Shown here piece by piece: positions 1 through 55,483 of a DNA stretch of 64,000 nt. This stretch comes from an uncultured Dehalococcoidia bacterium (GTDB taxonomy: Bacteria > Chloroflexota > Dehalococcoidia > Lucifugimonadales > GCA-2712585): assembly GCA_951812825.1 (NCBI GenBank), contig OX638324.1, forward strand, positions 1,735,141-1,799,140, in the 5' to 3' direction. The notes beneath the pieces were generated by a model, which was not told where the DNA came from, ran no database searches, and was given only the letters and a program-made list of their open reading frames with translations. A program made the translations under genes and the position numbers. Each line of letters starts with the position of its first letter. Positions within the stretch are counted from its first letter, which is position 1.

Positions 1-819
1 ACCGATTTTGAACATCCCGAATTCCTAACCAGCACCGAATGGCTGGCTGAGCATCTGGGAGAACCCGGCATTCGCGTCGTTGATTGCGATGTGCCCGATC
101 AGTACCAGCGCGCCCACATCCCCGGCGCGGTCTTTCAGCAGGACCACTACCAGAAGGACCCGGACACCAACCGGCTCCACATCTTCGGCCCCGAGGGATT
201 CAAGCAGCTGGCAGAGTCCCTCGGCATCGGCGACGACACCCTCGTCGTGGCCTACGACAACTCCCGTGGCCTCTACGCCGCCCGCCTCTGGTGGGCATTG
301 CATCACTACGGCCACACCAACGTCAAGGTCATGGACGGCGGCTGGCGCAAGTGGCTCTCGGAAGGACGTCAAATATCCGATTTCCCAGCCGGAGATCCCC
401 CCGCGGTAACCTTCACCCCCCGCCTGGACGACTCCATGATGGTGACCGCAGACCAGCTGATGGAGGACATGAACAAGTCTGATGCCGTCGTCTGGGACGT
501 CAGAAGCCGAGGCGAATACGAGGGCACAACCACCCGCGGCAACCGCAGGCCGGGCCGCATCGCCGGCGCCGTTCATCTCGAGTGGCTGGAGCTAGTCGAC
601 GGCAAGACCCACCTGCTCAAGCCCGCCTCCGAAATCCGCCGCGTTCTCGAGGACAACGGCATAACCCCCGACAAGCGCATCGACGCTCATTGACAGGCGG
701 GAATCCGTGCGGCGCACGGCACCTTCGTCCTCAAGCTCCTCGGCTACCCCGACGCCCGCAACTACGACGGCTCATGGGCCGAATGGGGCAACCGCGACGA
801 CACCCCCATAGAGGTTTAA
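1..819 (+). CDS. Two-domain sulfurtransferase (rhodanese/3-mercaptopyruvate type), 5' partial, probable selenoprotein
   Basis: The reading frame enters from the left window edge, so the N-terminus is missing. Codons 1-120 form an N-terminal rhodanese domain (motifs [25 protein letters not shown]) and codons 130-272 the catalytic domain ([23 protein letters not shown]). The frame carries TGA at 691-693 (codon 231) and then continues in register, with clear homology ([18 protein letters not shown]), to a TAA at 817-819. In this family the residue at that position is the persulfide-carrying cysteine of the CxxGxR loop, so the protein would read U-Q-A-G-I-R. A SECIS-like hairpin follows at 705-719. 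The family moves sulfane sulfur from thiosulfate or 3-mercaptopyruvate to acceptors. Selenocysteine is inferred; a nonsense mutation is the alternative. Confidence 0.8.
705..719 (+). promoter_or_regulatory. Candidate bacterial SECIS element of the sulfurtransferase
   Basis: CCGTGC (705-710) pairs perfectly with GCACGG (714-719) around the loop GGC. The loop begins 17 bases after the in-frame TGA. GAA at 701-703 can pair with TTC at 724-726 as a lower helix. Bacterial SECIS rules as I know them ask for a short apical loop with G in its first two positions, about 16-37 bases after UGA; this fits. GC-rich DNA forms hairpins easily, so the element alone is weak evidence. Confidence 0.6.
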
Positions 820-2189: not shown

Positions 2190-2933
2190 CTACAACCCCC
2201 AGTCCAGAATCACCATGTGCGTTTCCCTTGGCCCGTGGGCGCCGATGACCAGCGTTTGCTCGATGTCCGCCGTCCGGCTGGGACCGGTGATGAAGTTCAT
2301 GTAGCTGCCCGCATCCACGCCGTCCCGCAGGTACGCCAGCCTCCTCAACAAATACAGGTCGTCCAGACCCTCCAACGTTTGCGAAGGCTTCACCAGCGCC
2401 ACGTGCACCGGCGGCAGCAGAGACGTAACCCGGCTCACGCCCCGCCGAGGCAGAATGACGGCGGTCCCCGTTTCCGCAATCGCGTAATCAACCCCCGTGA
2501 CGCCAAGATCGGCGTCTGCGGGGTCGAAGCTTCCCGCGCTTTCATCCCCTCGCGCCATCACATGCACCGTCGCGCCCAACGACGTAAGCGCGTCGTCCAG
2601 CGGCACATCGCCAAACACATCCTCCACCGACCGCACCACCCGCCGCGTCTCCAACTTCTGCGCCAGCTGGTACACGTACCCGACGGCGTCCTCCACCCCC
2701 TCCGCCCGGTGCACCACCCACCCCCGCAGCGACGCCACTCGCGCCAATTCGTCCACGTTTGCCCGTCGATTTGCAGACAGCCGCTCCATCGTCGCCTCTG
2801 CCCGCTCCTCTACCGACGCTCGTTCCTCCACCATCCGGGCATAGGGACGCTCCGGCGGCCCCGCCTTCCGCCCCAACGCCTCCCTCACCGACGCTATAAA
2901 CTGCTCCGACGGCGTCCCCACACCCTCAATCAT
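2190..2933 (-). CDS. lutC: LutC-like lactate utilization protein (LUD domain)
   Basis: About 247 residues of the LUD/YkgG family. Visible landmarks are LGVTGVDYAIAETGTAVI in the centre, the basic RGVSRVTSLLPPVHVAL stretch, and GPSRTADIEQTLVIGAHGP at the C-terminus. LutC works with the iron-sulfur proteins LutA and LutB in cytoplasmic L-lactate oxidation to pyruvate. I chose the ATG at 2933 (MIEGVGTPSEQF) because it overlaps the lutB stop by four bases (ATGA); the frame is open further upstream, but only inside lutB. Last gene of a lutABC operon on the minus strand. Confidence 0.85.
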   Translation of the reverse strand: MIEGVGTPSEQFIASVREALGRKAGPPERPYARMVEERASVEERAEATMERLSANRRANVDELARVASLRGWVVHRAEGVEDAVGYVYQLAQKLETRRVVRSVEDVFGDVPLDDALTSLGATVHVMARGDESAGSFDPADADLGVTGVDYAIAETGTAVILPRRGVSRVTSLLPPVHVALVKPSQTLEGLDDLYLLRRLAYLRDGVDAGSYMNFITGPSRTADIEQTLVIGAHGPRETHMVILDWGL

Positions 2934-4375
2934 CGCCCCTCTTCCTCCAGCCGTTCCTTCCACACCTGGCGGAAGCTCTTGGGCGCCAGCGCCGGCATGT
3001 CCCGCGTCCGAGTCCAGCGAGAGAATGGCGGAATCGGCATCCGCCGGATGAACGACCCTCTGGAAAAAGGCCACTGCGCCAGAAGCCCCAGCGTCCGAGC
3101 CATCCCCAGCAGCCGAGGACTGCTCATCAGCCGACGGTAACCCTTAGACGTAATCCGATCGACGAAAGAAGCCTTCGTTGAACTAGTCGGAGAACCCTCT
3201 GAAATCTGGGAACGCAGCTTCAACAGCATGTGCGGAATGTTAATCTTTATCGGGCATACATCCTTACAGGCGCCGCAAAGGCTCGATGCGTTCGGCAGGT
3301 CCTTGCTACGTTCCAGCCCCACCAGCACCGGCGACACCACCGCCCCGATTGGCCCGGGATACACCCAGCCGTAGGAGTGTCCCCCCACCTTCCGGTACAC
3401 CGGGCAAGTGTTCAGGCACGCCCCGCAGCGGATGCAGTACAGCGCCTCCCTCAGGTCCGGGTCCGCCAGCAGCTTCGACCTTCCGTTGTCGACGATTATC
3501 AGGTGATACTCCTCAGGCCCGTCCTCGTCCTCGGGACGCTTCGGCCCGTAGACGTGCGTCACGTAGCTGCTGATGCGCTGGCCCGTGGCCGCCCGCGGCA
3601 GCAGCCTGATAAAAGTGGCCAGGTCCTCCATCGATGGGACGACTTTTTCCATCCCCGTTATCGACACCAGCACCCGCGGCACCGACGTGCAGAACCGTCC
3701 GTTGCCCTCGTTGGTTATCAGCGTCACCGTGCCCGTCTCCGCCACCAGGAAGTTCGCCCCAGTAATCCCCATGTCCGCGCTCACCAGCTTCTCCCGCAGC
3801 ACCTCCCGCGCCGCGCCCGCCATGGCCTCAATGTCTTGCAAATTGGGACGTCCAATCTTCTCCCCGAATAGCTCGGAAACTTCCTCCTTGGACTTGTGCA
3901 TCGCCGGCGCAATGATGTGGAAGGGCGTCTCCTCCGCAAGCTGGATGATGTACTCTCCCAGGTCCGTCTCCACTGGCTCCGTCCCGATGCTCTCTAGAAA
4001 CGGGTTTAACCCCATCTCCTCCGACACCATAGACTTGCTTTTGATGGCCAGCTTCAGCCCCCGCGTCTGGGCGATTTGGCCCACAATAGCCCGCGCTTCT
4101 GCCGCGTCCTTGGCGAAGTGCACGTGCCCGCCGTTCGCCGTAACTCGCTCCTGCAGCATCTCCAGGTAGTAGTCCAGGTTGTCCAGCGTATGCCGCTTGA
4201 TTTCCCGCCCCTGCTGCCGGAGCTCCTCCCACCGCTCGGGCGAAATCTCCTCGATAGCCTCAGCCCTCGCCCCGTCGAAGGTCCCCATGGAGCGGCCCAG
4301 GTACGACTGTAGCTTTGCGTTAGCCAATACCTTCGCGGAGGCCCGACGGAATTCCTGTGTCTTTACCTCAGACAT
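2930..4375 (-). CDS. lutB: LutB-like iron-sulfur lactate utilization protein
   Basis: A 481-residue protein. The N-terminal two thirds is a LUD domain (MGITGANFLVAETGTVTL); the C-terminal part is a ferredoxin-like segment with CIRCGACLNTCPVY and later CGACKDVCPI, eight cysteines for two 4Fe-4S clusters. Length and order match LutB/YkgF. It should pass electrons from lactate oxidation within the LutABC complex. It lies between lutA and lutC on the same strand; a 70-base gap separates it from lutA. Confidence 0.9.
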   Translation of the reverse strand: MSEVKTQEFRRASAKVLANAKLQSYLGRSMGTFDGARAEAIEEISPERWEELRQQGREIKRHTLDNLDYYLEMLQERVTANGGHVHFAKDAAEARAIVGQIAQTRGLKLAIKSKSMVSEEMGLNPFLESIGTEPVETDLGEYIIQLAEETPFHIIAPAMHKSKEEVSELFGEKIGRPNLQDIEAMAGAAREVLREKLVSADMGITGANFLVAETGTVTLITNEGNGRFCTSVPRVLVSITGMEKVVPSMEDLATFIRLLPRAATGQRISSYVTHVYGPKRPEDEDGPEEYHLIIVDNGRSKLLADPDLREALYCIRCGACLNTCPVYRKVGGHSYGWVYPGPIGAVVSPVLVGLERSKDLPNASSLCGACKDVCPIKINIPHMLLKLRSQISEGSPTSSTKASFVDRITSKGYRRLMSSPRLLGMARTLGLLAQWPFSRGSFIRRMPIPPFSRWTRTRDMPALAPKSFRQVWKERLEEEGR

Positions 4376-4445
4376 TTTTCTTCCCCCTCAAGAGGACAAA
4401 ACCCCCTATCGGGGCCGATTCATAACGCTGCATTCGTCCTGACAT

Positions 4446-5186
4446 CTACTTGCCGTCCCATAGAATCTCGGCTAGGTGACGCGCCTCCACCCCCACCCCA
4501 CGACGCCTCAGCCCGCCCCGAATCTGCATCAGGCAGCTTGCGTCGCAGGCCGTCACCGTCGACGCCCCGCTCTTCACCACGTTGTCCACCTTGTCGTCCA
4601 GCATCGCCTGCGAAATTCCGGGGTATTTCACCGAAAACGTCCCACCGAAGCCGCAGCATGTATCCGCGTCCTCCAACGGAACGTGCTCCAGCCCCTCAAC
4701 TCCCTCCAACAGCGTCACCGGCTCTTCCTTCGCCTCCAACTCCCTCAGCAAATGACACGATGGATGGTAGGCAACCTTGCCTTCGTGGCTTGCCCCCACG
4801 TCCTCAACACCCATCACCTTCACCAGAAACTGGGAGAACTCGTACACCTTCTCGCTCAACGCCTTCGCCTTCGGTCCATACACAGGGTCGTCGCGGAAAA
4901 TCTCCGGGTAGAACACCTTCATCATCGAAGCGCAGGACCCCGAAGGCACAACCACGTAGGCGCTCTGCTCAAACTCGTCGAGCACCCGACGGCCCAATTC
5001 GGCCGCGTCTTTGCGAAAACCGGAGTTGAAAAGTGGCTGTCCGCAGCAGGTCTGACCCGGCGGAAAGTCCACCCGCACCCCCTGACCCCGCAGCACGCCC
5101 ACCACCGCCTCGCCAACTTCCGGAAAAAGCTGGTCCACCAGGCAAGTCACAAATAGAGAAGCGCGAATTTGGGAGGAATCCGCCAT
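4446..5186 (-). CDS. lutA: LutA-like Fe-S oxidoreductase subunit (CCG domains)
   Basis: A 246-residue protein with two cysteine-rich CCG units: TCCGQPLFNSG followed by VPSGSCASM, and DTCCGFGGTFSVKYP followed by TACDASCLMQIRGG. These bind an unusual iron-sulfur cluster in LutA, GlcF and HdrB-type proteins. As the first gene of the minus-strand lutABC operon it is the likely catalytic partner in lactate oxidation. All expected cysteines are present, so selenocysteine is not used here. Confidence 0.88.
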   Translation of the reverse strand: MADSSQIRASLFVTCLVDQLFPEVGEAVVGVLRGQGVRVDFPPGQTCCGQPLFNSGFRKDAAELGRRVLDEFEQSAYVVVPSGSCASMMKVFYPEIFRDDPVYGPKAKALSEKVYEFSQFLVKVMGVEDVGASHEGKVAYHPSCHLLRELEAKEEPVTLLEGVEGLEHVPLEDADTCCGFGGTFSVKYPGISQAMLDDKVDNVVKSGASTVTACDASCLMQIRGGLRRRGVGVEARHLAEILWDGK

Positions 5187-5684
5187 CAGCCCCCCGGCTC
5201 AAAGATTGAAGCTCAGAGTATCAGAGCAGCCAAACCACGGCAAGCAACGAAACCCCACTCCTTCTTGTTTCATCCCCCAACTCCTCTTCCCGCGGAGGCG
5301 TGACCCCATCCTTTCCCTAGCCCTGTCTCGATACAAGCACGGTAATTGCTGCAATCAACACCGTCGGGGACAAGGACGAGCAAAAATCCTTGTGCTCCCA
5401 CGCCCAGGGACAGCCAAGGCGAGCACTTCTCCACCGGCTTGAACCGGATACCCTTGCCAACCCGGCGTGACCCCAATGAATGCTCTTAGTACCCTTTTTT
5501 GGTCATTCTGCGCGACGACGTAGCAAACTATCAGTCGATGACTCTTGGCAAGAGAATTGCCAGAACAAGACTTCGCCTATTGCCGCCATCCGATTATGCT
5601 ATTATATTCCCCAACATCGTAAGTAATCGTGAAACAACGTGGGCGAACAGTACAGAATCCATTGTTGCTTTCCGGGGGATAATC
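5187..5684. other. Intergenic region between lutA and the LRR gene
   Basis: No convincing gene. The left part is GC-rich filler with a stretch around 5300-5400 (TTGCTGCAATCAACACCG) that resembles nothing I can name. A short sequence, ACGGCAAGCAAC, at about 5237 recurs at about 7790 on the other side of the LRR gene. AT content rises from about 5490 towards the LRR promoter. Confidence 0.5.
5580..5608 (+). promoter_or_regulatory. Possible promoter of the LRR lipoprotein gene
   Basis: TTGCCG (5580-5585) and TATATT (5603-5608) are spaced by 17 bases, in an AT-rich stretch about 77 bases upstream of the chosen start codon. It is the only good sigma-70-like pair seen in the gap. Confidence 0.4.
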
Positions 5685-7664
5685 ATGAAAAGGTCAGCAA
5701 TTGGTCTGCTGTTCGCAGCTCCCGTGCTCCTCGCCATCCTACTTGTCGGCTGCTCTCATGATCCGACTCTTGCCCCTACATCTACCTCTGCACCCACGCC
5801 TCCTCCACCAGACCAGGCGGTTGAAACCCTAACCGACCGAGACGTCCTGAAAATACTCTACACTGCCATCGACGGCGATAACTGGAGGAACAACACCAAC
5901 TGGTTAGACGACGAAGTCCCACTCGGCCAATGGTATGGTGTAGAGACGGACAGCGAAGGACGCGTGGTTAGCCTGGATCTAGCCGAGAACCAAATGAGCG
6001 GCGAGATACCGTCCGAACTAGGCAATCTTTCCAACCTGATTTACCTTGCTCTCGGCAACAACCAACTGAAGGGTGAGATACCGCCAGAACTGGGCAGCCT
6101 TTCCAACCTGACTGAGCTTCATCTCGGCTACAACCAACTGAGTGGTGAGATACCGCCTGAGCTGGGCAGCCTTTCCAACCTGACTGAACTGAGTCTCCGC
6201 GACAACCAACTGAGTGGTGAGATACCGTCCGAGCTGGGGAGCCTTTCCAACCTGACTTATCTGAGTCTCCACGACAACCAACTGAGTGGTGAGATACCGC
6301 CTGAGCTGGGCAGCCTTTCCAACCTGTATACGCTGTGGCTCGACGACAACGAACTGAGTGGTGAGATACCGTCTGAGCTGGGCAGCCTTTCCAACCTGAC
6401 TAGGCTGTGGCTCGACGGCAACCAACTGAGTGGTGAGATACCGTCTGAGCTGGGCAGCCTTTCCAACCTGACTAGGCTGTATCTCAACATCAACGAACTG
6501 AGCGGTGTGATTCCGCCCGAACTAGGCAACCTTTCCAGCCTGACTTATCTTGATCTCGGCTACAACCAACTGAGTAGTGAGATACCGCCTGAGCTGGGCA
6601 GCCTTTCCAACCTGACTGAACTGAGTCTCCGCGACAACCAACTGAGTGGTGAGATACCGTCTGAGCTGGGCAGCCTTTCCAACCTGTATACGCTGTGGCT
6701 CGACGACAACGAACTGAGTGGTGAGATACCGTCTGAGCTGGGCAGCCTTTTCAACCTGTATACGCTGTGGCTCGCCGACAACGAACTGAGTGGTGAGATA
6801 CCGTCTGAGCTGGGCAGCCTTTCCAACCTGACTGAGCTGGATCTCGACGACAACGAACTGAGCGGTGAGATACCGCGCGAGCTGGGCAGCCTTTCCAACC
6901 TGACTAAGCTGGATCTCCGCGACAACCACCTGAGCGGTGAGATACCGTCTGAACTGGCCAGCCTTTCCAGGCTGACTTATCTGTGGCTCGACGGCAACCA
7001 ACTGAGTGGTGAGATACCGTCTGAACTGGCCAGTCTTTCCAGGCTGACTTGGCTGTATCTCGATGGCAACCAACTTAGCGGCAAGATACCGCCGGAGCTG
7101 GGCAGCCTTTCCAACCTGAATAAGCTGAATCTCTCCGGCAACCAACTCACCGGCTGCCTGCCACTAGCCTTGACGACTGTGCGCCATAACGACATCGACG
7201 CGTTGGGCTTGCCGCTCTGTGGGGAGTTCTCCCCCACGCCTCCTCCACCAGACCAGGTGGTTGAAACCCTAACCGACCGAGACGTCCTGGAAATCCTCTA
7301 CACCGTCACCGACGGCGACAACTGGAGGAACAACACCAACTGGTTTGACGACGAAGTCCCACTCGGCCAATGGTATGGCGTAGAGACGGATGGCGAGGGA
7401 CGCGTGGTTAGCCTGGATCTGTCCGAGAACCAAATGAGCGGTGTGATTCCGCCCGAACTAGGCAACCTTTCCAGCCTGACTTATCTTGATCTCGGCTACA
7501 ACCAACTGAGTGGTGAGATACCGCCCGAGCTGGGCACCCTTCCCAACTTGGGACTGCTGTGGCTCTCCGGCAACCAGCTGAGGGGCTGTGTGCCGCAAGC
7601 CTTGACAACTGTGGAGAGAAACGACATTGACGCGTTGGGCTTGTCTGTCTGTAGTGACTCCTGA
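5685..7664 (+). CDS. Leucine-rich-repeat lipoprotein with 20 plant-type LRRs
   Basis: About 659 residues. The ATG at 5685 follows a GGGGG Shine-Dalgarno and gives a lipoprotein signal peptide (MKRSAIGLLFAAPVLLAILL, then V-G-C lipobox), so it should be anchored outside the membrane. After a Pro/Thr linker comes an N-cap (DRDVLKILYTAIDGDNWRNN) and 17 LRRs of 24 residues (consensus L-x-x-L-x-L-x-x-N-x-L-S-G-E-I-P-x-E-L-G-S-L-S-N), closed by LTGCLP. The linker and N-cap then recur almost unchanged at 7225-7440, with three more LRRs. The SGEIP pattern is the plant-type LRR class. Likely a surface binding or adhesion protein; ligand unknown. The 72-base units are nearly identical, indicating recent expansion. 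Confidence 0.85.
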   Translation: MKRSAIGLLFAAPVLLAILLVGCSHDPTLAPTSTSAPTPPPPDQAVETLTDRDVLKILYTAIDGDNWRNNTNWLDDEVPLGQWYGVETDSEGRVVSLDLAENQMSGEIPSELGNLSNLIYLALGNNQLKGEIPPELGSLSNLTELHLGYNQLSGEIPPELGSLSNLTELSLRDNQLSGEIPSELGSLSNLTYLSLHDNQLSGEIPPELGSLSNLYTLWLDDNELSGEIPSELGSLSNLTRLWLDGNQLSGEIPSELGSLSNLTRLYLNINELSGVIPPELGNLSSLTYLDLGYNQLSSEIPPELGSLSNLTELSLRDNQLSGEIPSELGSLSNLYTLWLDDNELSGEIPSELGSLFNLYTLWLADNELSGEIPSELGSLSNLTELDLDDNELSGEIPRELGSLSNLTKLDLRDNHLSGEIPSELASLSRLTYLWLDGNQLSGEIPSELASLSRLTWLYLDGNQLSGKIPPELGSLSNLNKLNLSGNQLTGCLPLALTTVRHNDIDALGLPLCGEFSPTPPPPDQVVETLTDRDVLEILYTVTDGDNWRNNTNWFDDEVPLGQWYGVETDGEGRVVSLDLSENQMSGVIPPELGNLSSLTYLDLGYNQLSGEIPPELGTLPNLGLLWLSGNQLRGCVPQALTTVERNDIDALGLSVCSDS

Positions 7665-7917: not shown

Positions 7918-8014
7918 TGGCGGGAGTGGGAGGGAGTCGAACCCTCCCATCCCGGTTGTGACGGGATACAACGGATTTGAAGTCCGCAGGAGCCACCGGG
8001 CCCCATCCACTCCC
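7918..8014 (-). tRNA. selC: tRNA-Sec (anticodon UCA)
   Basis: On the minus strand the gene starts GGGAGTGG and ends CCACTCCC-G-CCA, an 8-bp acceptor stem with encoded CCA (7918-7920). The T arm is GAGGG-TTCGACT-CCCTC (5 bp), giving the 8+5 architecture of bacterial tRNA-Sec. The anticodon arm reads GCGGA-CTTCAAA-TCCGT with UCA in the loop, as in E. coli selC, and there is a long variable arm (ATCCCGTCACAACCGGGAT). It would be charged with serine, converted to selenocysteine by SelA and delivered by SelB; neither gene is in this window. It follows trxA on the same strand after 90 bases. Confidence 0.93.
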
Positions 8015-8104
8015 GAAAATCGTCAATTGCCGCCCCATCTTCACCGACGGGACGCTATGTCATCCCCCGCGCCGAATCCACAACCCGGCGCGGAGCGAAG
8101 TTAG

Positions 8105-8434
8105 CTAACCGGCCAGCGCCGCCTCAATCTTCTTCCTCAGCTGCCCCTTCGGCACCGCGCCCACAATTTGTTCCACCGGCTTGCCGCCCTTGAAGATCAG
8201 CAGCGCCGGAATGCTGCGAATCCCGTACGTCACCGCCGTAATCGGGCTGGAATCCACGTCCACCTTTGCGAAGTCCATCACCCCGTCCATCTCCTCCGCC
8301 AGCTCGTCCACAATTGGGGAAATCATCTTGCAGGGCACGCACCACTCCGCCCAGAAATCCACCAGTACGGGGAGCTCAGCCTCCACTACCTTCTCATTGA
8401 ATTCAGCATCGTTCACCGCAAAGGGTTTCGCCAT
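8105..8434 (-). CDS. trxA: Thioredoxin
   Basis: About 109 residues with the thioredoxin fold and the active site VDFWAEWCVPCKM (W-C-x-P-C; V replaces the usual G), the cis-proline region IRSIPALLIFKGG and a C-terminal helix KGQLRKKIEAALAG. A general cytoplasmic dithiol reductant. The ATG at 8434 (MAKPFAVND) follows a GGAGG-like site; the frame is open 11 codons further. It directly precedes selC and uses cysteine, not selenocysteine. Confidence 0.93.
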   Translation of the reverse strand: MAKPFAVNDAEFNEKVVEAELPVLVDFWAEWCVPCKMISPIVDELAEEMDGVMDFAKVDVDSSPITAVTYGIRSIPALLIFKGGKPVEQIVGAVPKGQLRKKIEAALAG

Positions 8435-8593
8435 CGGTTCCTCCAGTGTAAGGTTTAATGTATACATCTTCAGCGGGGTATGCGTCCCCTCTGATATTTC
8501 AGTTTATACCCACGCTAGCCATCGGTCAACGAGACGGCGAATGTGAAGCCAAGTGAGCGAGAGTAGAATCACACATTGTTGAAAAGCTCTAGA

Positions 8594-29602: not shown

Positions 29603-30040
29603 TCACCCCAGCGGTATCCGCTTTCCATCCTTACTCCGGCGGAAGGAACCGATGCAAAACTCGTTGCCTTCCGGGTCGGCCATCGTGACTCCTCCACCCG
29701 GTCGAGGCTCGCTTATTCTCCTGCCTCCGAGCGCCTCTATCCGAAGCATGGCGTCATCAACATCTGGCACAACAAAGCACATGTGACATCGATTCTTCAC
29801 AACCTTGGGTTCGGGCACCTTCTGCAGCACGAGCAATGTCGTAGAGTCGAGGGAACCTACCGTCAACCACCCACCCCCGCTACGCACCGGCCCCGGTTCT
29901 TCCCCAAGCATAGCTCCCCAGAAAGCACCTTCCCGCTCAATGTCTTCCACATCCAGTGTTACCGCCCCGATTTCCAATACAATTCCCCCACTGGGAGCGG
30001 TCTGCATCGGTCCCTTTGAATCAGTTACAGTTTCGCGCAT
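29603..30040 (-). CDS. VOC (glyoxalase-fold) protein
   Basis: 145 residues with a repeated beta-alpha-beta-beta-beta layout: LEIGAVTLDVEDIEREGAFW at the start and CHMCFVVPDVDDAMLRIEAL in the second half, ending in VTMADPEGNEFCIGSF. The family includes dioxygenases, glyoxalases and resistance proteins; no substrate can be assigned. It stands upstream of two HAD hydrolase genes' 3' side on the same strand but 45 bases beyond them, so co-transcription is possible. Confidence 0.75.
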   Translation of the reverse strand: MRETVTDSKGPMQTAPSGGIVLEIGAVTLDVEDIEREGAFWGAMLGEEPGPVRSGGGWLTVGSLDSTTLLVLQKVPEPKVVKNRCHMCFVVPDVDDAMLRIEALGGRRISEPRPGGGVTMADPEGNEFCIGSFRRSKDGKRIPLG

Positions 30041-30049
30041 TCTCCATCA

Positions 30050-31511
30050 CCGGCTGCAATCGCATGAAATTCGCCCCCACTCCCCTCACACCAGCCCCAA
30101 AACCTCCGCAATGCTGGAAATCCTCCTCCCCTCCCAACTCTCCCGACTCCCGTCCGCCTCGTCATACGGCGCCCGCATCAACACCGCCGTCATCCCCGCT
30201 TGTTCTGCCCCGCTCAACTCGACGTCGCTCCCATCCCCCACGTACAGACAGTCCTTGGCCTCCACTCCCAGCCTCTCCGACGCCAGCGCGTAAATCCGAG
30301 GGTCCGGCTTGGCCAGTCCAACATCAAACGACAGAATCGCCACGTCAAACATGGGCGCAAAGGGCGTCGATTCCCACACCAGGGAAACTTCTTCCATGCA
30401 ATTGCTGATCAAGCCGACCCTGTACCCCCTGCTATTCAAGGCAGCATAAGTCTCGACCACTCCCGGACGTGGAATGATCGAGTCCCGCGAGAATTCCAGC
30501 CGTAGCCTCGCGCTGGCCCTTATTCTATCTTCGCCGGGATTCACTCCTAGCCTTCCACATATGTGTATCAGAGCCGCTTCGATGGAAGAAAATCCGCCGG
30601 TCATAAGCTCATGCATAGCGTCCGCCCATTCCCTGGCAAATTCATCCCCATCAACCCCGAGAACATCTGCCATTTCGTCCCTGTTCTCGGGATAGTCCGG
30701 CAAGTCAATCAGCGTGCCAAAAAGGTCGAAAATCACCGCCTCGTACTTCTTCACACCTGGCCGCTTTCCCCCTGTCCATTCTCTTCCCGCCGCATGTCGA
30801 GCCAACTCCCTATCCCCGGCTGCAATCGCATGAAATTCGCCCCCACTCCCCTCACACCAACCCCAACACCTCCGCAATGCTGGAAATCCTCCTCCCCTCC
30901 CAACTCTCCCGACCCCCGTCCGCCTCGTCATACGGTGCCCGCATCAACACCGCCGTCATCCCCGCTTGTTCTGCCCCGCTCAATTCGCCGTCGCTCCCAT
31001 CCCCCACGTACAGGCAGTCCTCGGCGACCACTCCCAGCCTCTCCGCCGCCAGCGCGTAAATCCGAGGGTCCGGCTTCGCCAGCCCAACATCAAACGAGAG
31101 AATCGCCGCGTCAAACATGGACGCAAATGGCGTCGATTCCCACACCAGGGAAACTTCTTCCATGCAATTGCTGATCAAGCCGACCCTGTACCCCCTGCTA
31201 TTCAAGGCAGCATAAGTCTCGACCACTCCCGGACGTGGAATGATAGAGTCCCGCGAGAATTCCAGCCGTAGCCTCGCGCTGGCCCTTATTCTATCTTCGC
31301 CGGGATTCACTCCTAGCCTTCCACATATGTGTATCAGAGCCGCTTCGATGGAAGAAAATCCGCCGGTCATAAGCTCATGCATAGCGTCCGCCCATTCCCT
31401 GGCAAATTCATCCCCATCAACCCCGAGAACATCTGCCATTTCGTCCCTGTTCTCGGGATAGTCCGGCAAGTCAATCAGCGTGCCAAAAAGGTCGAAAATC
31501 ACCGCCTCGTA
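30050..31511. repeat. Tandem duplication, two units of about 700 bases at 766-base spacing
   Basis: Sequence 30050-30745 recurs at 30816-31511 with few changes. Each unit holds one HAD hydrolase gene plus about 35 bases beyond its stop (CAATCGCATGAAATTCGCCC). The 5' part of the gene is essentially identical in both; substitutions cluster in the 3' part. Confidence 0.9.
30086..30754 (-). CDS. HAD-superfamily hydrolase, copy A
   Basis: 222 residues of the HAD phosphatase family. Motif I is AVIFDLFGTLIDLP (D-x-F-G-T), motif II LISNCMEEV, motif III in GLAKPDPRIY and motif IV CLYVGDGSDVELSGA. Substrates are usually small phosphates or haloacids; unknown here. GTG start at 30754 chosen by alignment with copy B, which begins with ATG. 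Against copy B it carries A/S, V/A and E/V-type substitutions only in the second half. Confidence 0.85.
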   Translation of the reverse strand: MKKYEAVIFDLFGTLIDLPDYPENRDEMADVLGVDGDEFAREWADAMHELMTGGFSSIEAALIHICGRLGVNPGEDRIRASARLRLEFSRDSIIPRPGVVETYAALNSRGYRVGLISNCMEEVSLVWESTPFAPMFDVAILSFDVGLAKPDPRIYALASERLGVEAKDCLYVGDGSDVELSGAEQAGMTAVLMRAPYDEADGSRESWEGRRISSIAEVLGLV

Positions 31512-31520
31512 CGCCTTCAC
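30852..31520 (-). CDS. HAD-superfamily hydrolase, copy B
   Basis: 222 residues, the upstream twin of copy A. The catalytic set is intact (AVIFDLFGTLIDLP, LISNCMEEV, GLAKPDPRIYALAAE, CLYVGDGSDGELSGA). The ATG (MKAYEAVIF) lies 2 bases after the stop of a small membrane protein gene, so this copy probably keeps the original promoter and copy A arose behind it. Confidence 0.85.
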   Translation of the reverse strand: MKAYEAVIFDLFGTLIDLPDYPENRDEMADVLGVDGDEFAREWADAMHELMTGGFSSIEAALIHICGRLGVNPGEDRIRASARLRLEFSRDSIIPRPGVVETYAALNSRGYRVGLISNCMEEVSLVWESTPFASMFDAAILSFDVGLAKPDPRIYALAAERLGVVAEDCLYVGDGSDGELSGAEQAGMTAVLMRAPYDEADGGRESWEGRRISSIAEVLGLV

Positions 31521-53834: not shown

Positions 53835-55319
53835 CTACAACCCCGTTATCTCCAGCGTCCTCACCTCCCCAGAGGCAATGTCCGCCACCCGTACGGCGTG
53901 GTTATTCGTATCCGCAATGTACAGCTTCCCGTGAGCAGCCGTAATACCCCCCGGCTCGAAGAACGTGGCTGACGAGCCAACCCCGTCGTCGAACCCCGCC
54001 TCCCCCGATCCAAGGAAGCTGTAGGAAGCCCTGTTCTCAGGATATATCTTCTTTATCTTGTGGTTGTACGCGTCCGTCACGTACAACACCCCGTCGTGCA
54101 GACACAACCCCAGCGGGTGTTGCAGCCGCACCTCCGTCCCCATCCCGTCCACGTCGCCAAACTCAAACAACCCCCGCCCTACAATCGTCGTCACTCGCCC
54201 GCTTAGGGATATATCCGCCATCCTCACCGAACTCGTCTCGCTGTCGACAAAATACAGCCTGCTGCTGTCGTTCGTTATCCCGCTCGGTTGGGCCAGCGTC
54301 GCCGACTTCATCGGCCCGTCGTGGATGTCCTCCCTGCCGCTCCCCGCGTGCGGCGTGGCCCGGAGCGTCAACTCGTCCAATGCCCACAGCTGATGATATC
54401 CCGCCATCGCCGCATAGACCGTGCCACGATGCACCGTCAGGTCCCACGGAGAGTTCAGCCCTGCCTCGTTCAGCGATCCTCCCTGGTTCCCAAAAGGCCC
54501 CTGGCTCCCGTTCCCCGCCATCGTATCCACGTAACCGTCGTTCAGGTACACCCGGCGAATGGCGTGATTCTCCGTGTCCGCCACGTACAGAATGTTGCTC
54601 CTCAGCGCCATCCCCTGGGGATGGTCGAAGGCGGCCACCACAAAGTCCCCGTCCTGGAAGCCGGGGGTAAGCCCGCCGATGACCTGCGTCACTTCCCCCT
54701 CCAGCGTCGTCTGTAAAATCCGGTTGTGGTTGGAGTCGGAAATAAACAGCCGGTCCCGCTGCTCGTCCGCCAGCACCTTCCCAGGGAAGGAAAGCGCCCC
54801 CTCCGGCGGCTGCTCCAGCCGGTAGTCCAGCGGCGTCCGGTCAAGAATGTCCGCCCCTTCGTAATTCAGCACCATCGCCGAAAGCAGCTTGTCGAAGGCG
54901 TCGTAGGGAATCTCCCCCTCGTGCTTGCCGATTATCTTCCCCTCGGGATCTATGAACACCAACGTCGGCCACGCCCTGCAACCAAAGGACTGCCACACCC
55001 GGAACTCGCTGTCGTTGATTACGGGATGCCCTATCTCGTACCTCAGAATCGCCATCCGCACGTTCTCCGTCTCCCGCTCCGCCGGGAACTTGGCGGAGTG
55101 AACCCCTACCACGGCCAGCTCCTTCTCGTACTTCTTCTCCAGTTTCCGCAACTGCGGAAAAACGTGCATGCAGTTAATTCAACAGTACGTCCAGAAGTCC
55201 AGAATTACTATCTTCCCCTTCAATTCTTCCATCCTTATGGGACGCTGGGTGTTGAGCCATGCAAGGCCCTCGGGGAAGTCCGGCGCCGCTGTTGTTCCGA
55301 AGTATGACGATCGGGACAT
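53835..55319 (-). CDS. Thioredoxin-like/NHL-repeat protein (NHLRC2 type), probable selenoprotein
   Basis: About 494 residues with an in-frame TGA at 55181-55179 as codon 47. The thioredoxin domain reads [34 protein letters not shown], then [18 protein letters not shown] and [19 protein letters not shown]. Homologues have Cys in the TGA position (C-C-I-N-C), so the redox pair becomes U-x-x-C. About 300 residues of NHL beta-propeller follow ([52 protein letters not shown]). A SECIS-like hairpin lies just beyond the TGA. An alternative start is at 55376. Without readthrough only the first 46 residues would be made. Confidence 0.82.
55143..55160 (-). promoter_or_regulatory. Candidate bacterial SECIS element of the thioredoxin/NHL gene
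   Basis: On the minus strand TTTCCGC and GCGGAAA form a perfect 7-bp stem around the loop AGTT. The loop begins 25 bases after the TGA, and G is its second base, within the range accepted for bacterial SECIS elements. Together with selC and the cysteine-to-TGA position it supports readthrough. Confidence 0.65.
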
Positions 55320-55483
55320 TGAGTTCTCTCTTTCAGGTAGAAGTGCTGTACCCATTGTGCACCACAAACAAGACATAATCCACCCTCAGTTTGTGACAAT
55401 TCACCCGTGACGCGCTGCGCCCCAGTGGGGTAATATCTTAGGGCCAGCCTGGGAATGAGACCCAAAATACACCGAGGTTCAAA

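Follow-up and report, generated by a model that had tools for sequence, protein, structure and literature searches.

Within the window (the whole 64-kb stretch of DNA analyzed here), ARAGORN finds a single tRNA-Sec gene, selC, located at exactly positions 7918–8014 of the minus strand and carrying the anticodon TCA. The gene matches the Rfam model RF01852 over its full length and scores 75.7 bits, where the gathering score is 47 (E-value 9.8e-14). The tRNA has an acceptor stem of 8 bp (GGGAGUGG/CCACUCCC) and a T stem of 5 bp (GAGGG/CCCUC), which together form a fully paired 8+5 helix (13 bp), a D stem of 6 bp with a 4-nt loop, the anticodon loop CUUCAAA, a long variable arm of 6–7 bp, and G73; its CCA is encoded in the gene (positions 7918–7920, minus strand). 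The minimum free energy (MFE) of the selC strand is −48.4 kcal/mol (z = −2.78), and none of 200 shuffled sequences reaches so low a value.

In a covariation alignment of selC from 35 relatives, one per family, the structure is paired in 94.4 per cent of alignment cells (versus 79.1 per cent in shuffles), and 20 of the 31 stem pairs have two-sided changes (versus 12.4 in shuffles). No shuffle reaches either of the observed values, and slid-partner controls give 47–59 per cent. ARAGORN, RF01852, the fold, and covariation agree with each other and with the sequence-only reading of this DNA, which had described a complete tRNA-Sec with a UCA anticodon, 8+5 stems, and a long variable arm, and had named the covariance-model score as a check. 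Judged by its sequence, 7918–8014 is confirmed as a genuine and complete bacterial tRNA-Sec gene, an ordinary member of RF01852. Other matches to RF01852 in the genome score 46–49 bits and, because these scores are far below that of selC, were taken for cross-matches to ordinary tRNAs. Among the 35 relatives, the second T-stem pair (column 72/86) is non-standard in 26, mostly as U–U, and acceptor pair 8 (column 8/88) is so in 15; the window's selC has standard pairs at both positions.

The immediate 5′ neighbour of selC is trxA, likewise on the minus strand (8105–8434), which encodes a thioredoxin of 109 amino acids with the active site WCVPC (TIGR01068, 121.2 bits; cut-off 96.8) and has an ATG preceded by GGAGG. 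At E ≤ 1e-25, the genome has no other TrxA. The two genes are separated by a spacer of 90 nt (8015–8104, minus strand), in which a consensus scan found neither a promoter-like nor a terminator-like site. The same scan identified a single promoter-like site on the minus strand at this locus, TTGACC-17-TAAACT (8501–8529), which is located upstream of trxA and is recognized from its consensus matches only. On the other side of selC, an open reading frame (ORF) resembling a leucine-rich repeat (LRR) lipoprotein (5499–7664, plus strand) faces the tRNA gene with its 3′ end, so that both flanks are as originally described. A linkage of trxB to this pair in the window's order was considered and rejected, as trxB is located at C1:603311 in G000 and the trxB coordinates of the relatives searched are not beside trxA–selC.

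The source genome is a single contig of 2.47 Mb and is 96 per cent complete. Besides selC (C1:1743062), it carries selB (C1:1942814; 349.7 bits, cut-off 242.25), selA (C1:2188473; 550 bits, cut-off 267.9), and selD (C1:1058509; 375.2 bits, cut-off 125), the last with an in-frame TGA that makes SelD itself a selenoprotein. The sequence-only reading had asserted that the organism makes selenocysteine (Sec) and had pointed to selA, selB, and selD as the genes to look for; the assertion is upheld by the presence of all three in this single-contig genome, with selD in its Sec-containing form. The genes are scattered (selD at 1.06 Mb, selC at 1.74 Mb, selB at 1.94 Mb, and selA at 2.19 Mb), and neither selA nor selB adjoins selC in this genome. 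Clustering of selA and selB, sometimes with selC, is the usual arrangement. Because selA, selB, selD, and selC all occur in the genome, the organism is, by its gene content, predicted to have the full bacterial Sec pathway without this usual clustering.

The window also contains two genes with an in-frame TGA. The first encodes a selenoprotein resembling rhodanese/3-mercaptopyruvate sulfurtransferase (1–819, plus strand; its start lies upstream of the window), in which the TGA (691–693, plus strand) occupies the position of the catalytic Cys (DAH-U-QAGIRA). It is followed by a SECIS-like hairpin, CCGUGC-GGC-GCACGG (705–719, plus strand), that is conserved in Sec orthologues. Among 60 relatives, the TGA is kept in many close orthologues; one of these sequences (L278) has the compensated hairpin variant CCGUUC-GUC-GAACGG, and the hairpin is absent from a Cys orthologue (L285). 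A 2026 review (PMC13188914) counts rhodanese form 2 and form 4 (UxxG) among the selenoprotein families already known.

The second gene encodes an NHLRC2-like selenoprotein, in which a thioredoxin fold is combined with NHL repeats (53835–55322, minus strand). Its TGA (55181–55179, minus strand; motif WTYC-U-INC) is present in 19 of the 21 full-length orthologues found among the 60 relatives, and the SECIS-like hairpin 3′ of it (UUUCCGCAGUUGCGGAAA; 55143–55160, minus strand) is conserved in Sec orthologues. This hairpin, TTTCCGCAGTTGCGGAAA, is near-identical in 18 Sec orthologues, synonymous third positions included, with a third-position identity of 0.91 inside the hairpin and 0.71 outside it. 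In both Cys orthologues the hairpin is destroyed, and the genomes that encode them (G031 and G042) have neither selB nor selC. Taken by themselves, the SECIS stretches have weak MFE z-scores, and the case for SECIS elements is made by the wobble-position conservation, the compensated variant, and the loss of the hairpin in Cys orthologues. The tRNA gene had originally been offered as support for readthrough of both TGAs; that support is now direct, because in both genes the TGA and the wobble-conserved SECIS-like hairpin after it are conserved in relatives. A text search for NHL in the 2026 review (PMC13188914), which covers the selenoprotein families of prokaryotes, returned no mention, and the NHLRC2-like protein may thus represent an undescribed selenoprotein family.

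With RF01852 (threshold E ≤ 1e-12), we screened 147 genomes of the order to which the window belongs and recovered selC in 106 of them. The surroundings of 89 of these selC genes were read, and trxA is located directly 5′ on the same strand in 79; by the coordinates of selC and trxA, the remaining 17 genomes have the same arrangement. With two genomes left out because their genes are at contig edges (G036 and G107), trxA and selC are linked in 96 of the 104 assessable genomes. Among 19 selC-negative genomes in which trxA was read, seven carry selC behind trxA after all, with scores of 60–62 bits. In total, trxA is directly 5′ of selC in 103 of the 111 assessable genomes of the order, an arrangement that spans at least 30 families. 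The gap between the trxA stop codon and selC ranges from 4 to 350 nt (median 54.5) and is 4–26 nt in many genomes, which leaves no room for a promoter at those loci; at L079 the gap is about 15 nt, and apparent values of −3 and −129 are artefacts.

The linkage has exceptions. It is missing from three families (f15, f22, and f29) and from one genus (g33) of family f30, all of which keep selC, and in G106 an antisense ORF lies between trxA and selC. Since the linkage has been lost in several lineages that retain selC, it is not essential. Six genomes without selB and selC (G016, G028, G031, G042, G054, and G058) have kept trxA and show no trace of selC behind it. A search with TrxA met selC only at L144 and L146, both of the trxA–selC type, and its other matches are mostly distant thioredoxins. 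One TrxA gene (L267, G035:C90:315-638) was examined as a candidate Sec thioredoxin and rejected, as its TGA replaces a conserved Trp; although this genome has selB, the TGA looks like a point change or a sequencing error.

Around the linked genes, the neighbourhood varies. Upstream of trxA, the commonest gene encodes a cysteine desulfurase and is found at 24 of 86 linked loci; downstream of selC, the commonest gene is found at 8 of 86. What surrounds trxA and selC changes, and the pair itself persists. The upstream desulfurases are NifS/IscS-like and come from 13 families (for example, L043, L059, L103, L105, and L111). Between desulfurase and trxA there is often a lipoprotein-like protein of about 190 amino acids with a weak DUF4352 match below the Pfam cut-off. 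Desulfurases are known mobilizers of selenium, and for this reason the loci that combine a desulfurase with trxA–selC may constitute a larger selenium/sulfur operon.

Outside the order and within the class, we read 70 selC loci from 44 sampled families. The tRNA gene is preceded by trxA or trxA–trxB in 21 of the 44 families and by tatC, on the same strand, in four (f66, f84, f113, and f115; loci L125, L129, L133, L137, L242, L315, L332, and L343). In several of the remaining families selC adjoins selD or selB; one of these families we take to be that of Dehalococcoides/Dehalogenimonas. Across the phylum, selC is present in 276 of 400 genomes, and trxA is upstream of it at only 2 of 27 further loci, nearly all of which belong to other classes. 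The trxA–selC arrangement is therefore order-wide, in part class-wide, and almost never found in other classes of the phylum. The position of selC behind trxA had at first been called suggestive of a redox context, and its conservation across the order and in part of the class gives this suggestion a firmer footing.

We consider it probable that a functional selC forms the 3′ member of a thioredoxin unit, is cotranscribed with trxA, and is held there by selection, most likely for selenium supply. Cotranscription would be the simplest reading of the short gaps and of a spacer that lacks a terminator-like site. RNA polymerase would start before trxA and read through into selC, and RNase P and 3′ processing enzymes would then release the tRNA from the trxA mRNA. 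SerRS would charge the tRNA with serine, SelA would convert the product to Sec-tRNA using selenophosphate made by SelD, and SelB would bring it to UGA codons that have a SECIS hairpin behind them, the two of the window among them. Thioredoxin, for its part, would help to provide SelD with selenium by reducing selenite to selenide, tying thioredoxin to the supply of tRNA-Sec, and selection would keep the two genes together. Sequence data establish the tRNA gene, the complete set of sel genes, the conserved UGA/SECIS genes, and the conserved linkage; cotranscription, release of the tRNA from the trxA mRNA, and selenium supply as the step that the linkage serves are what we infer from them. The genome has no other close TrxA, and the linked protein must surely have functions beyond selenium; this point weighs against the explanation, as do the loss of linkage in several lineages and the presence of tatC before selC in four families of the class.

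Work on Escherichia coli and Pseudomonas stutzeri speaks for such a role of thioredoxin. According to that study (PMC8538045), a selenoenzyme is less active in E. coli once trxA has been deleted, the loss of thioredoxin reductase has the same effect, and thioredoxin forms an adduct with selenium. Its authors regard the thioredoxin system as the main path by which selenium is delivered from selenite, and they treat its hand-over to SelD as unsolved (PMC8538045). If this mode of delivery also holds in the organisms studied here, linkage of trxA, with or without trxB, to selC is what would be expected. A more far-reaching version of the explanation is that thioredoxin, together with TrxB in several families, and tRNA-Sec make up a dedicated and co-regulated selenium-delivery operon, in which the thioredoxin system is the genuine donor path to SelD and excision of the tRNA sets both the fate of the trxA mRNA and the supply of tRNA-Sec; we regard this version as rather doubtful.

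The strongest competing explanation is that a genuine selC merely rides on a strong constitutive trxA promoter, with no coupling to selenium and with the arrangement preserved by inherited inertia. It is a serious possibility, if not one that we favour. The genomes that lost selC and selB have kept trxA in place, and tatC holds the same position before selC in certain families of the class, as this explanation would have it. Moreover, tRNA genes commonly share operons with protein-coding genes. Against it, the other neighbours turn over while trxA and selC stay together, and where the partner has changed within the class it has mostly become trxA or trxA–trxB, both of which are implicated in selenium delivery in E. 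coli. Alternatively, selC may have its own promoter, located within the spacer or the 3′-terminal part of trxA, and be adjacent to trxA without being cotranscribed. The gaps of 90–350 nt in some genomes would accommodate such a promoter, and the 90-nt gap of the window, which counts against a trxA–selC unit, could hold a weak one below the reach of our scan; with the many gaps of 4–26 nt and with no promoter-like site found in the window's spacer, we judge this arrangement unlikely. That selC is a decayed, non-functional, or non-Sec tRNA, such as a suppressor or a relic of a Ser-tRNA, can be dismissed almost completely, as nothing was found in its favour and given an RF01852 score well above threshold, the covariation, the intact selA, selB, and selD, and the conserved UGA/SECIS genes.

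The thioredoxin unit that we prefer can be compared with several known systems. In its UCA anticodon, 8+5 acceptor/T-arm, long variable arm, and encoded CCA, the tRNA is like that of E. coli selC; however, the annotated neighbours of selC in E. coli K-12 are the pseudogene yicT and setC, whereas here a conserved trxA is directly upstream. With the selABC operons of unusual tRNA-Sec genes (PMC5330540) it would share the inclusion of selC in a multi-gene unit that serves Sec, but the partners there are selA and selB, whereas here the partner is thioredoxin and selA, selB, and selD are far apart. In Alphaproteobacteria and Gammaproteobacteria, selC can be nested in or overlap selB (PMC8124441), which likewise puts tRNA-Sec into a protein-coding transcript, as it probably is here, and processing of the tRNA may be coupled to the fate of the mRNA in both cases. 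The loci described here differ in that there is no overlap with selB and the tRNA follows trxA or trxA–trxB. Finally, the TrxA and TrxB implicated in feeding SelD during thioredoxin-dependent reduction of selenite in P. stutzeri and E. coli are the same proteins as here; that work is biochemical and genetic, and in the part drawn on here it describes no genomic linkage of trx genes to selC (PMC8538045). We found no earlier report of trxA–selC in open-access full texts, a body of literature that leaves out most subscription journals and all preprints. The tRNA itself is ordinary, and the part that looks new is its genomic place behind trxA, a setting that is apparently undescribed.

How bacteria pass the selenium of selenite on to selenophosphate synthetase is regarded as an open question, for which thioredoxin has been proposed on the basis of work in E. 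coli and Pseudomonas (PMC8538045). The joining of trxA to selC over at least 30 families provides independent evolutionary support for this proposal from a distant phylum. The linkage also yields a practical rule for finding selC, namely, to look behind trxA, which recovered the seven selC genes below our search threshold. In addition, the order offers matched relatives with and without Sec, in which the selenium dependence of genes can be tested.

Elsewhere in the window, three adjacent ORFs at 2190–5186 (minus strand) resemble a lactate-utilization (LUD/Fe-S) operon, and homologues of these ORFs lie just downstream of selC at L031. The ORFs at 29956–30408 and 30563–31174 have near-identical C-terminal ends, which suggests a tandem duplication, and the same stretch contains overlapping reverse-strand ORFs at 30086–30931 and 30852–31520.
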